Part shown: one piece after another, positions 2,585 through 45,799 of the stretch | How positions within the stretch are numbered: position 1 is the stretch's first letter | How the letters are laid out: every line of letters begins with the position of its first letter | Made by a program: the position numbers and the translations under genes | The notes under the pieces: model-generated | Database searches by the model: none | Seen by the model: the letters and a program-made list of their open reading frames with translations, nothing else | What the model was told of the DNA's origin: nothing | Source: Rhodanobacter sp. T12-5 | GTDB lineage: Bacteria > Pseudomonadota > Gammaproteobacteria > Xanthomonadales > Rhodanobacteraceae | Direction: 5' to 3' | Assembly (NCBI RefSeq): GCF_008329435.1 | Contig: NZ_NPKN01000001.1 | Coordinates: forward strand, 558,001 to 622,000 | Length of the DNA stretch: 64,000 nt

Positions 2585-3209
2585 CGGACCGGCGTTCCGG
2601 CATGCGACGAGTGCCGTTCCGATCGCGCACGAATGTCTTGCGCACGGAGGCGTGATTTGCGTCGGCGATGGCGAGCATGCGTCGACATGTCGTTTGCGAT
2701 GAAGTCGCGATGGACGTCCGCGACAAGATGGCGAAGATGGCGCGAGAGGATTCGTCGCGGCCCTCCCGATCGACGATCGAGAGGCATGGCCAGTCGACCC
2801 GCCGTCGCCGCGGCGAGGGTTCCGCGATGCTCGCGGAAGATCCGGTTCGAAAAATATTCGACCTGTTTCAGTGGCGTTCCGTTCATGTAGGACGGGCGTT
2901 GCAGTCGGTCGAAATCTGCCGGCTTCGCATGGCCTCCTGTTGCAACGATTTGTCGGCCGGAGAATTGCGCGATGTCATGAAATCGTTGTGCCACAAAGGT
3001 TTCAAGCGATATTGCTGTTTTTCGTTGAATTTCGTATGGATGTATAGACGTCCATTTAATGAATAGGGCGAATGCCCCCGAGGCCATGCTGCAACGGGCT
3101 TTGGCCCGGTCTGGGGGGTGATCGAGGGGTTTGATTTCATGGCTGAAATCAATTGACAGCCGAAATCTTCAGGGATAGCTTTCGCAACAGATCACGGGGA
3201 ATGTGCGTT
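2585..3209. other. Long non-coding stretch upstream of metJ
   Basis: About 625 bp without a convincing gene. The open frames here are Arg- and Cys-rich and resemble no family I know. G+C falls toward 2990-3200 compared with the rest of the window. It contains a Met box (3038-3053), a perfect 7-bp hairpin GATTTCA/TGAAATC at 3133-3150, and a TTGACA hexamer at 3153-3158 with a weak -10 17 bp later. It is probably the regulatory region of metJ; a small RNA cannot be excluded. Confidence 0.5.
3038..3053 (+). promoter_or_regulatory. Candidate MetJ operator (Met boxes) upstream of metJ
   Basis: Two adjacent 8-mers, GGATGTAT and AGACGTCC, match the MetJ box consensus AGACGTCT at 5 and 7 of 8 positions; a weaker third 8-mer (4 of 8) precedes them at 3030-3037. 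They overlap a possible -10 (TATAGA, 3043-3048). MetJ binds tandem boxes as cooperating dimers, so this suggests autorepression. The better promoter match lies ~100 bp downstream at 3153, which weakens the case. Confidence 0.55.
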
Positions 3210-3764
3210 ATGGCAACAGCAAAGTTCATCAAGCCTTATGTCGAACACGGTGAAAAGGCGAATGCAGTACGCAAGATCACCGTCTCGATTCCGCTGCATG
3301 TATTGCGGCGGCTTTCCGATTTGCGCACACACCGACAAGTGAACAATCTTCGGCACGCCACCAACAGCGACTTGTTGGTCGAGGCGTTCCTGCACGCTTT
3401 TACTGGGCAACCACTGCCAACTGATGAGGAGCTTAGACGAACCATGGCCACTGCCAAGAAATCCGCTGCAAAGAAACCGGCCGCCAAGAAGGCCGCCGCC
3501 AAGAAATCCACTGCCAAGAAGGTCGCCAGCAAGAAGCCGGTAGCCAAGAAGCCCGCTGCCAAGAAGGTCGCCAAGAAGCCGGCCGCCAAGAAAGCTGCCG
3601 CCAAGAAACCGGCAGCCGCCAAGAAGTCCGCCGTGAAGAAAGTCGCGGTGAAGAAAGTCGCCGCGAAGAAGGCTGCCAAGAAGCCGGCCGCCAAGAAAGC
3701 TGCACCGGCCAAGGTGGTGAAAGCCACCAAGACCGCGAAGGCCAAGACCGCCAAGAAGAAGTAA
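3210..3764 (+). CDS. metJ: MetJ-type methionine repressor fused to a histone H1-like Lys/Ala tail
   Basis: Residues 1-78 are a clear MetJ ribbon-helix-helix domain: '[14 protein letters not shown]' (residues 22-35; the DNA-contacting strand) and '[19 protein letters not shown]' then '[10 protein letters not shown]' (42-70), nearly as in E. coli MetJ, a SAM-dependent repressor of methionine genes. The E. coli C-terminal helix is absent. In its place residues 79-184 are almost only Lys, Ala, Pro, Val and Ser in KKPAAKK/KKAAAKK units, as in AlgP and eukaryotic H1 tails, which bind DNA non-specifically. The start at 3210 is chosen from GGGGA at 3196-3200 and alignment to MetJ; ATG at 3201 is possible. 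Met79 begins '[11 protein letters not shown]', looks like the start of a free H1-like protein, and has GAGGAG 12 bases upstream, so two products are possible. The likely target, metX, is in this window. Confidence 0.88.
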
Positions 3765-43224: not shown

Positions 43225-43248
43225 AAACGTCTAGATGTTTAGACGTCT
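43225..43248 (+). promoter_or_regulatory. Three tandem MetJ boxes at the metX promoter
   Basis: Consecutive 8-mers AAACGTCT, AGATGTTT and AGACGTCT match the MetJ box AGACGTCT at 7, 5 and 8 of 8 positions, in register and without gaps, the classic MetJ operator form. They end two bases before a perfect TTGACA (43250-43255), so bound repressor would block RNA polymerase. They lie in a short AT-rich island. Confidence 0.9.
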
Positions 43249-43249
43249 A

Positions 43250-43278
43250 TTGACAGCAACTTGAAAGGCATTCACCAT
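43250..43278 (+). promoter_or_regulatory. metX operon promoter
   Basis: TTGACA at 43250-43255 is a consensus -35. The hexamer 17 bp later, CACCAT, is a poor -10 (3 of 6). Transcription would start near 43285, at the first base pair of the SAM aptamer, which supports this placement. Confidence 0.65.
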
Positions 43279-43286
43279 CCGCTTCA

Positions 43287-43397
43287 CTCATCGAGACCGG
43301 CGGAGGGATAGGCCCTTTGATGCCGGGGCAACCAGCGGGGACGTCCCGCCACGGTGCCAAATCCTGCGGCGGCGCCACGGCGCCACCGAGAGATGGG
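43287..43397 (+). ncRNA. SAM-I riboswitch (S-box) in the metX leader
   Basis: The P1 helix is CTCATC (43287-43292) with GATGGG (43392-43397). Inside are the conserved S-box blocks: 'GGCGGAGGGATAGGCCC', 'TTTGATGCCGGGGCAACC', a P3 hairpin GCGGGGACGTCCCGC, then 'GGTGCCAAATCCTGC' and 'CCACCGAGAGATGGG'. S-box RNAs bind S-adenosylmethionine and shut off methionine genes. Promoter, aptamer and metX are in line. Confidence 0.93.
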
Positions 43398-43441
43398 CGT
43401 CATCCGGCCGCAGCTCCCCTGGCGTGCACGTGTGACCCCGG

Positions 43442-43471
43442 CTCCGGTACCTGCAGGCGATGCGACCGGAG
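43442..43471 (+). promoter_or_regulatory. Hairpin sequestering the metX ribosome binding site
   Basis: CTCCGGT (43442-43448) pairs perfectly with ACCGGAG (43465-43471), which includes most of the GGAGA ribosome binding site of metX. I see no terminator with a U-tract between the aptamer and metX, so the riboswitch probably acts on translation. Confidence 0.6.
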
Positions 43472-43477
43472 AACCGC

Positions 43478-44506
43478 ATGACCCTTCAATCGCTGCCACT
43501 TGCCGTTTCCGATGCCGGCCATTTGCCGGCCCCATTCCATGGGCAGTCGCATCGTGACGACCTGACCGCCCGGCGCAGCACGCGGCGGGTGGTCATCAGT
43601 CCCAAGTACGGCAGCGGCCGGCGCGAGGTCGAGGTTCGCTATCTGTGGTGCGGCGCGCCGGATGCGCCGACGCTGATCGTGCAGGGCGGCATCTCCGCCG
43701 ACCGCGACGTCGTCGCATTGGATGGCCAACCCGCGCCCGGCTGGTGGCAGGCGCTGGTCGGCAGCGGTGCGGCGATCGATCTGCAGCGCTGGCGCGTACT
43801 GGCGATCGACTGGCTGACCCCGGGCGAGCTCGATGCCGGTTCGGTGTCCAGCGAGGATCAGGCCGACGCGCTGGCGGCGCTGTTGCGCGAACTGGACATC
43901 CCGAAGGCACATGCATTCATCGGTTCCTCGTATGGCGCGATGGTGGCGCTGGCCTTTGCCGCGCGGCATCCGTGTTGCGTGGACCGGCTGGTGCTGCTGG
44001 CCGGTGCGCACCGGCCGCACCCGCTCAGCACCGCGCAACGCAGCGTGCAGCGCGGGATCGTGCGACTGGGCCAGGCCAGTGGTCGGGTCGACGATGCGCT
44101 GGCGCTGGCGCGGCAGCTGGCGATCACCACCTATCGCGGCAGCGGCGAATTCGGCCGCCGCTTTGCCGGTGGCCCGGAATGGCGCGACGAGCGCTTCCGT
44201 TTTCCGGTCGAGGACTACCTGGAACATCAGGGCCGCCGCTTCGTCGAGCGTTTCGACGCCGATCGATTCCTCGCATTGTCCGAGTCGATCGACCTGCACG
44301 ACGTCACGCCGGAGCAGATCCCGACACCGGCGACGCTGATCGGCTTTCCGTCCGACCGCCTGGTGCCACTGGCCGACCTGTGCGAATTGCAGCGCCGCCT
44401 GCATGGCCCGGCCACGCTGGAAGTGGTCGAGTCGCCCTACGGCCACGACGCCTTCCTGAAGGAACCCGCGCAGCTCGCGCCGCTGCTGCGCGAAGCACTC
44501 GACTAG
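43478..44506 (+). CDS. metX: Homoserine O-acyltransferase, MetX type (probably O-succinyltransferase)
   Basis: 342 residues, alpha/beta hydrolase fold. It acylates homoserine, the first committed step of methionine synthesis. The nucleophile is S151 in 'FIGSSYGAMVAL'; the triad is completed by Asp in 'GFPSDRLVPL' and His in 'YGHDAFLKE'. In Xanthomonadales the MetX fold often uses succinyl-CoA, and the partner cystathionine gamma-synthase fits O-succinylhomoserine; the acyl donor is inferred. ATG at 43478 is chosen because GGAGA lies five bases upstream; ATG at 43460 would add six residues. First gene of metX-metB-hom. Confidence 0.92.
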   Translation: MTLQSLPLAVSDAGHLPAPFHGQSHRDDLTARRSTRRVVISPKYGSGRREVEVRYLWCGAPDAPTLIVQGGISADRDVVALDGQPAPGWWQALVGSGAAIDLQRWRVLAIDWLTPGELDAGSVSSEDQADALAALLRELDIPKAHAFIGSSYGAMVALAFAARHPCCVDRLVLLAGAHRPHPLSTAQRSVQRGIVRLGQASGRVDDALALARQLAITTYRGSGEFGRRFAGGPEWRDERFRFPVEDYLEHQGRRFVERFDADRFLALSESIDLHDVTPEQIPTPATLIGFPSDRLVPLADLCELQRRLHGPATLEVVESPYGHDAFLKEPAQLAPLLREALD

Positions 44507-44570
44507 GGAGCGCACCCTGTGCGCGAGCTCCTCGCGCTGCCGCCAGGAGCATCGCGCACAGGGTGGCTCC
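44507..44570. repeat. Diverged REP-like palindrome between metX and metB
   Basis: Arms 44507-44532 and 44545-44570 share GGAGC.CACCCTGTGCGCGA.GCTCCT as inverted copies with small indels. It starts at the metX stop and may protect or process the operon mRNA. Confidence 0.8.
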
Positions 44571-44608
44571 TGCAACAAACACCACGACGCAATGATTTGG
44601 AGATGGAC

Positions 44609-45799
44609 ATGAGCGAAACCCCCGCCCCCTGTACCCGCGCGGTGCGCGCCGGCATCGAATCGGACACCCAGCACGGCGCGGTGGTGCCGCCGCTGCACCT
44701 GTCCACCAACTACGCGTTCGAGGGGCTCGGCGGCAAGCGCCCGTACGACTACTCGCGCAGCGGCAACCCCACCCGCGACCTGCTCGGCAATGCGCTGGCG
44801 GAACTGGAGCAGGGCGTCGGTGCGGTGGTGACGTCGAGCGGCATGTCGGCAGTGGCGCTGGTGCTGGAACTCGTACCGGCCGGCGCGACCGTGCTGGCGG
44901 CGCACGATTGCTACGGCGGTACCTGGCGATTGCTCGACGCATGGGCGAAGAAGGGCCGCTTCAACGTGGTGTTTGCCGACCTCACCGATCCCTGCGCGCT
45001 GAGCGAAGGTCTTGCCGCCAAGCCGGCACTCGTCTGGGTGGAGACGCCGTCCAATCCGCTGCTGCGGATCACCGACATCCGCCACGTGGCGCATGCCGCG
45101 CATGCGGTAGGCGCGCTGCTGGTGGTCGACAACACCTTCCTGTCGCCGGCATTGCAGCAGCCGCTGCTGCTCGGCGCGGACGTGGCGGTGCACTCCACCA
45201 CCAAGTACATCAACGGTCATAGCGACGTGGTCGGCGGCGCGGTGGTGGCGCGCGACGCGGCGGTGTTCGATCAGCTGAAATGGTGGGCCAACTGCAACGG
45301 CCTCACCGGCGCGCCGTTCGACAGCTACCTGACCTTGCGCGGCCTGCGCACCTTGAGCGTGCGTCTGCGCCAGCACCAGGAAAACGCGACGCGCATCGCC
45401 GAGCTATTGGACGCCCACGCGGCCGTGCGCAAAGTCTATTACCCCGGTCTGGCCAGCCATGCAGGCCACGCGTTGGCAGCGCGTCAACAGCAGGGTTTCG
45501 GCGCCATGCTCAGCTTCGAACTGGAAGGCGACGTGGGGCAGATCGAGGCCTTCGTCGATGGCCTGAAGTATTTCTCGCTGGCCGAATCGCTGGGCGGGGT
45601 GGAAAGCCTGATTGCGCATCCGGCTTCGATGACGCATGCGTCGATGGCGCCCGAGGCACGCCGCACCGCCGGCATCGCCGACAGCCTGCTGCGCCTGTCG
45701 GTCGGCATCGAGGACGGTGACGACCTGCTGCACGATCTCGATGCCGCGCTGGCCCGCGCTGCAGCGGTAGAGACGTCCAAACGCCGGGTACTCGCATGA
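44609..45799 (+). CDS. metB: Cystathionine gamma-synthase
   Basis: 396 residues, a PLP enzyme of the Cys/Met metabolism family. It joins cysteine to O-acylhomoserine to make cystathionine. Motifs: 'YDYSRSGNPTRDLLGNALAELE' (~45-67), 'TSSGMSAVAL', 'ETPSNPLLRITDI', PLP lysine K199 in 'HSTTKYINGHSD', and 'LAESLGGVESLIAHPASMTHA'. ATG at 44609 is preferred over 44603 because GGAG then sits six bases upstream. Its stop overlaps the hom start (ATGA). Confidence 0.95.
   Translation: MSETPAPCTRAVRAGIESDTQHGAVVPPLHLSTNYAFEGLGGKRPYDYSRSGNPTRDLLGNALAELEQGVGAVVTSSGMSAVALVLELVPAGATVLAAHDCYGGTWRLLDAWAKKGRFNVVFADLTDPCALSEGLAAKPALVWVETPSNPLLRITDIRHVAHAAHAVGALLVVDNTFLSPALQQPLLLGADVAVHSTTKYINGHSDVVGGAVVARDAAVFDQLKWWANCNGLTGAPFDSYLTLRGLRTLSVRLRQHQENATRIAELLDAHAAVRKVYYPGLASHAGHALAARQQQGFGAMLSFELEGDVGQIEAFVDGLKYFSLAESLGGVESLIAHPASMTHASMAPEARRTAGIADSLLRLSVGIEDGDDLLHDLDAALARAAAVETSKRRVLA

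Follow-up and report, generated by a model that had tools for sequence, protein, structure and literature searches.

A metJ gene with a histone H1-like tail and a predicted nested start in Rhodanobacter sp. T12-5 and other Rhodanobacteraceae

The stretch of the Rhodanobacter sp. T12-5 genome analyzed in this work (64,000 nucleotides, hereafter the window) carries on its forward strand a stop-free frame (3210..3764; ATG at 3210-3212, TAA at 3762-3764) encoding a 184-aa protein, in which the methionine repressor MetJ is joined to a histone H1-like tail (the metJ-H1 fusion gene). The MetJ part (residues 1-78; 3210..3443, + strand) was delimited by profile matches and by alignment with the E. coli protein. 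The Pfam MetJ domain (PF01340) matches residues 5-89 with 120.6 bits (cut-off 25), the NCBIfam MetJ model scores 125.6 bits (cut-off 110), and E. coli MetJ (1cma, 104 aa) aligns with E = 1e-30. As this alignment stops at residue 90 of the 104 in E. coli MetJ, the C-terminal part of the E. coli protein is missing here, which agrees with the earlier, sequence-only reading of this DNA. From Met79 on, the frame encodes a Lys/Ala repeat of 106 residues, which also constitutes a nested ORF (3444..3764, + strand) for a predicted free H1-like protein of 106 aa. The best NCBIfam model for the tail alone is NF038053 (histone H1-like DNA-binding protein), whose position 1 falls on Met79. Since both the score with this model (33.5 bits, curated cut-off 80) and that with Pfam HC2 (PF07382; 32 bits, cut-off 40) are below the respective cut-offs, the tail is named H1-like without membership in either family. 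The originally described arrangement, i.e., 78 MetJ residues and a Lys/Ala-rich tail of 106 residues in one frame, was thus borne out by the frame, Pfam and NCBIfam.

The T12-5 genome has one copy of metJ. The closest named database proteins come mostly from Rhodanobacter and already bear the MetJ annotation; among the matches listed, the MetJ Pfam domain is present in 120 of 120 proteins and in many of them the HC2 domain as well, and the MetJ + HC2 architecture is already visible in databases.

Upstream of the gene, a probable promoter (3153..3181, + strand; TTGACA at 3153-3158, 17 nt, TAGCTT at 3176-3181) was read from an alignment of the leaders of 88 relatives, in which the TTGACA columns are more than 80% identical; the consensus scan reported 0 sites. 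A probable Shine-Dalgarno sequence of the main metJ start, GGGGAA, was recognized from the sequence at 3196..3201 (+ strand). A structured metJ leader was also considered and rejected, as RNAalifold over the 88 leaders yielded no structure. Further upstream lies a tandem MET-box-like pair, GGATGTATAGACGTCC (3038..3053, + strand), matching the doubled consensus AGACGTCT at 12 of 16 positions. It is located approximately 100 bp upstream of the probable promoter and at about -172 from the start, and in many relatives such a pair is found at about -160 to -190. Within 350 nt upstream, a MET-box pair with at least 12 matches is present at 41 of the 76 loci (the window's own included) vs. 1.5% of shuffles, and such pairs are weak or missing in the loci of genera g9 and g7.

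In the whole T12-5 genome, 19 tandem MET-box-like places were found vs. 5 for the reversed pattern. Nine of the 19 were inspected, of which three are placed ahead of methionine-pathway genes (metX-metB, metK, and an aspartokinase-like gene); a rough look at the ORFs around the other six recognized no methionine gene. The metX-metB genes (43460-44506 and 44519-45799) are preceded by three MET boxes (43225-43248), an adjoining TTGACA (43250-43255) and, between the latter and the genes, a SAM-I riboswitch (43285-43399). This riboswitch is present in 77 of 78 relatives' genomes, and the order of MET boxes, riboswitch and metX-metB was retained in all 30 relatives' loci fetched (L340 from genome G238, to which we return below, is one of these loci). 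In all 30 riboswitch loci the MET boxes were found 43-63 nt upstream with 13-16 of 16 bases matched, where shuffles reach 13 in less than 0.1% of cases. SAM may thus be read twice on metX-metB, by MetJ on DNA and by the riboswitch on RNA. Judging from the MET boxes that precede metX-metB, the MetJ half is probably still a methionine repressor; of the SAM-responsive repressor proposed earlier, it is the methionine repressor that gains support, indirectly, from the boxes at metX-metB, metK, and the aspartokinase-like gene. Within the MetJ part (3210-3443), the window's genus has DLRTHRQV vs. DERTRRQV in most other genera, a site which we take to lie near the SAM contacts in E. coli MetJ.

Strain R12 is presumably the Rhodanobacter of a published proteomics paper. 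In this paper, MetJ of R12 is reported to rise while four methionine enzymes fall (PMC12146267). Concerning the order Xanthomonadales, one report gives MetJ in six other groups and lists four Xanthomonadales genomes, with MetJ in none of them (PMC4239095), and another describes Xanthomonas campestris 8004 as having no metJ (PMC6230763). The latter conflicts with a third paper, which includes Xanthomonas in the range of the MetR/MetJ system (PMC7270179). The MetJ regulon of Rhodanobacteraceae appears undescribed in the open-licence PMC papers reached.

A survey of 299 genomes of the order indicated MetJ in 96 of them, i.e., 76 from the family of the window (its own genome included) and 20 from three other families. 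Within Rhodanobacteraceae, MetJ was found in 227 of 233 genomes (190 of 192 among good assemblies). A comparison set of 139 relatives, all from distinct genomes, was compiled from the order survey (75) and from loci picked for genus spread or taken from the family survey (64), which together cover 25 of the 26 genera of the family. A tail with at least 25% Lys+Arg is present in 137 of these relatives, and the other two run off the contig. The search of homologues for the same tail, suggested in the sequence-only reading, has therefore mapped it to 137 of 137 readable family relatives, and the fusion is genuine and the usual state in Rhodanobacteraceae. The MetJ frames of the three other families are open for 80-143 residues (n = 20), and the tail is absent from the 16 of these 20 proteins that were read, which end shortly after LPT(D/N). 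Two tailless MetJ proteins of another family of the order (L091 and L096) end a few residues past LPTD. As they are also short at the C-terminus, the E. coli-type segment there can be missing without a fusion, and this segment was not used as MetJ-defining. An ancestral free H1 gene beside a tailless metJ was also sought, and none was found in nine loci of other families, in five of which the filter recognized the metJ frame; the one alanine-rich frame flagged has no lysine repeats.

Lys/Ala tails look common in Rhodanobacteraceae. Such repeats were seen on topoisomerase-, nuclease-, DksA-, and AlgP-like proteins (L117, L114, L119, L107, L121, L120, and L103; mostly identified by eye). The T12-5 genome itself encodes an AlgP-like protein of 258 residues and another protein whose end is DksA-like (both named by eye), and given these other Lys/Ala-rich proteins the metJ locus is not a unique source of a free H1-like product. 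In the same genomes, five further genes with Lys/Ala tails (four topoisomerase-like and one nuclease-like; the topoisomerase of T12-5 was confirmed by Pfam and the others were named by eye) lack a Met at the junction.

At the junction of the fusion gene, the putative nested start codon (ATG of Met79; 3444..3446, + strand) is present in 136 of 137 readable relatives, spanning 25 of the 26 genera. The residue preceding this Met varies (T in 89, D in 29, R in 10, I in 7, and A in 1), and in 10 relatives one codon was lost near the junction with the ATG kept. The candidate nested Shine-Dalgarno sequence GAGGAG (3426..3431, + strand) was recognized by its kept spacing and its duplex energy with the 16S rRNA end. 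It does lie 12 nt before the Met79 codon, as had been claimed, and the same spacing was found in 126 of 136 relatives (9 nt in the other 10), which is long for a start and counts against a nested one. Both the start codon and the Shine-Dalgarno sequence are kept beyond the needs of the protein, by which a gene within a gene is recognized.

The GAGGAG sequence ends a block of ten codons, ACTGGGCAACCACTGCCAACTGATGAGGAG (3402..3431, + strand), whose synonymous sites are almost frozen, as judged from synonymous change counts in the relatives' alignment; two preceding codons (3396-3401, + strand), with 5 and 6 synonymous changes, form a laxer extension. The junction (GCT TTT, followed by the ten codons of the block with GAY as the eighth and GAG GAG at the end) is near-uniform, and its flanks vary freely. 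Over the 139 relatives, the block accumulated 2.7 synonymous changes per codon vs. 20.6 in 56 MetJ codons upstream of it (Mann-Whitney p = 1e-6), counted on a tree of the remaining MetJ sequence (11.5 changes per site in total). Block codons with at least four-fold degeneracy changed 2, 2, 1, 2, 2, and 9 times, and the control minimum was 8. The 30 bases are the same as in the window in 81 of the 139 relatives and differ at one position in 37 more; five control segments of ten codons showed medians of 5-10 differences from a same-genus sequence. Minority codons make up six of the ten in the block (against a background computed from the loci). At two Thr positions ACT is used and never ACA, though the two are equally rare, and AGA is the sole arginine codon at 3435-3437 (131 of 131). 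Since equally rare synonyms are not swapped, the freeze is base-specific and does not concern rarity as such. It also crosses the ATG, as 128 of 136 relatives use AAA for the second Lys, with approximately 4-10% AAA from the ninth Lys codon on.

A fixed-pattern scan of genome contigs, overlapping the 139-relative sample, found the block in at least 118 places. Among the matches listed (80), the named ones belong to Rhodanobacter, Dyella, Luteibacter, Frateuria, Dokdonella, Tahibacter, Mizugakiibacter, and Oleiagrimonas, and the remaining ones to bins labelled at higher rank only. Among these same listed matches, the block is in the MetJ frame in 80 of 80, with MetJ upstream in 78 (the other two loci begin near the block) and Met at the junction in 79 (the last one ends at the contig). 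The search of viral contigs found none with the block.

Two further candidates for the block were set aside. A structured RNA element was suggested by the stems GCUUUU/AGGAGC and GGCA/UGCC, which the block forms in its minimum-energy fold when taken alone; these stems are broken without compensation in relatives. The four-U run facing the Shine-Dalgarno sequence in the former stem resembles a fourU thermometer. A hammerhead-like resemblance (CTGATGAG...CGAA) was dropped by eye, as relatives have no GAA.

Because the block was inherited by the relatives from a common ancestor, the energies computed for the nested start come near to one observation: the mean Shine-Dalgarno duplex energy is -9.8 kcal/mol at the nested site vs. 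-5.2 after recoding and -4.9 at the main start, opening of the start region costs 10.3 kcal/mol in the native vs. 14.3 in the synonymously recoded sequences (mean percentile 0.10, 86 loci), and the mean opening costs over 85 loci are 11.7 kcal/mol for the main and 10.1 for the nested start. For the gene of the window the order is reversed by a small margin, opening costing 8.8 kcal/mol at the main and 9.8 at the nested start, and the nested site is surpassed in openness by 18% of the in-frame sites upstream of it on average. The only relative without the nested ATG, L059 (genome G238), has GTG instead. It has the most changed block of all relatives (6 of 30 bases), its GAGGAG is broken, and its start region is closed (26.8 vs. 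22.6 recoded; percentile 0.97). This is one natural experiment and a single case, and GTG might still start translation there. The L059 genome also encodes a 457-residue Lys/Ala-rich protein (L104).

Judging from these comparative data, we consider it probable that Met79 is a used and selected nested start, which would yield a free H1-like protein. With regard to the two products proposed in the sequence-only reading, the nested start is backed by sequence evolution (kept ATG, Shine-Dalgarno sequence, and synonymous freeze), and the products themselves are predicted. The same reading had named as its possible refutation a tail that is routine and gives only one product; the tail is indeed routine in Rhodanobacteraceae (137 of 137), and as to a single product, the junction shows strong comparative evidence of a second start.

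The block begins 42 nt upstream of the nested ATG (48 nt with the extension), and as it exceeds the expected need of a start site, a second function there is possible. One tentative version of the nested-start explanation, included in the above estimate, is that the start is real and that a putative trans-acting RNA or protein controls it by way of the block's upstream half. This would account together for the start-codon evidence and for the uncommonly long freeze. It is unlikely that the block is mainly a regulatory mRNA or DNA target (e.g., a small RNA site, an RNA-binding protein site, or another overlapping element) tuning the fusion or its mRNA, with the nested ATG at most weakly used. 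The 30-42 frozen, sequence-specific bases exceed the usual start region, and the lack of a compensated stem (the outer stem is unbroken in 116 and the inner one in 122 of 139 relatives) would suit trans pairing or protein contact; such a target, however, leaves unexplained both the ATG kept amid varying neighbours and the AAA fixed as the second Lys codon after it. Moreover, no Rfam family scored above threshold, and a known RNA family was rejected (three sub-threshold matches near the gene, with E of 1 or more, none inside the block). The 24-base core of the block occurs once in the T12-5 genome with up to 3 mismatches allowed, and a promoter inside the block was dropped because the scan saw no sigma-70-like one there, although the same scan missed the probable metJ promoter too.

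It is very improbable that the fused protein alone matters, with rare codons slowing the ribosome between its parts and Met79 being a linker residue kept by descent. The share of minority codons in the block speaks for it, but no exchange with equally rare synonyms is seen, the freeze extends to CTG, which is the most common Leu codon, and the Met survives both insertion/deletion and changes of the preceding residue. An artefact, be it a sequencing error joining two adjacent genes, as the sequence-only reading had considered, or a chance long frame, has a negligible probability, since 137 of 137 readable relatives share this frame.

The protein resembles E. coli MetJ (PF01340; 1cma) in its N-terminal 78 residues, its single genome copy and the tandem MET boxes before methionine genes, and differs from it in having no E. 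coli C-terminal segment and in the presence of the Lys/Ala tail and the nested start. With bacterial H1-like proteins (NF038053, HC2 PF07382, AlgP) the tail shares Lys/Ala repeats, and NF038053 begins at the nested Met; unlike them, it is below the cut-offs of NF038053 and HC2 and is fused behind a repressor instead of being free-standing. A C-terminal part also made alone from an in-frame internal start is known for RpnL/RpnS (PMC10327210) and YscQ/SctQ (PMC4295842). Those two cases were shown experimentally, whereas that of metJ-H1 is predicted and combines a SAM repressor with an H1-like tail. Among open-licence PMC papers, we found none that deals with MetJ and a histone H1-like protein together, and what turned up on Rhodanobacter and ribosome profiling is unrelated, judging from its abstract.

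In the nested-start explanation, ribosomes starting at ATG 3210 would produce MetJ with the H1-like tail, and those starting at ATG 3444 would produce the tail alone, in frame, from the same gene; initiation at the latter codon and the making of both products are predictions from sequence. The MetJ half would repress methionine genes with SAM, as the MET boxes suggest. The basic tail might add non-specific binding of DNA, RNA, or polyphosphate, which is a guess from its composition, and the free tail might, as a further guess, be a nucleoid-type protein. The link between methionine state and chromosome structure proposed in the sequence-only reading is not needed to explain the data. It is a doubtful, though conceivable, extension that a nucleoid-type protein is made from the same mRNA as a SAM-responsive repressor, with a trans-acting reader of the 30-base block setting their ratio and thereby tying methionine state to DNA packaging.

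If the nested start is true, the metJ-H1 locus would be a gene within a gene kept across a bacterial family, in which a textbook repressor and an H1-like protein are encoded together. Its junction is an unusually clear sequence signature, which may be tested by a few synonymous base changes.
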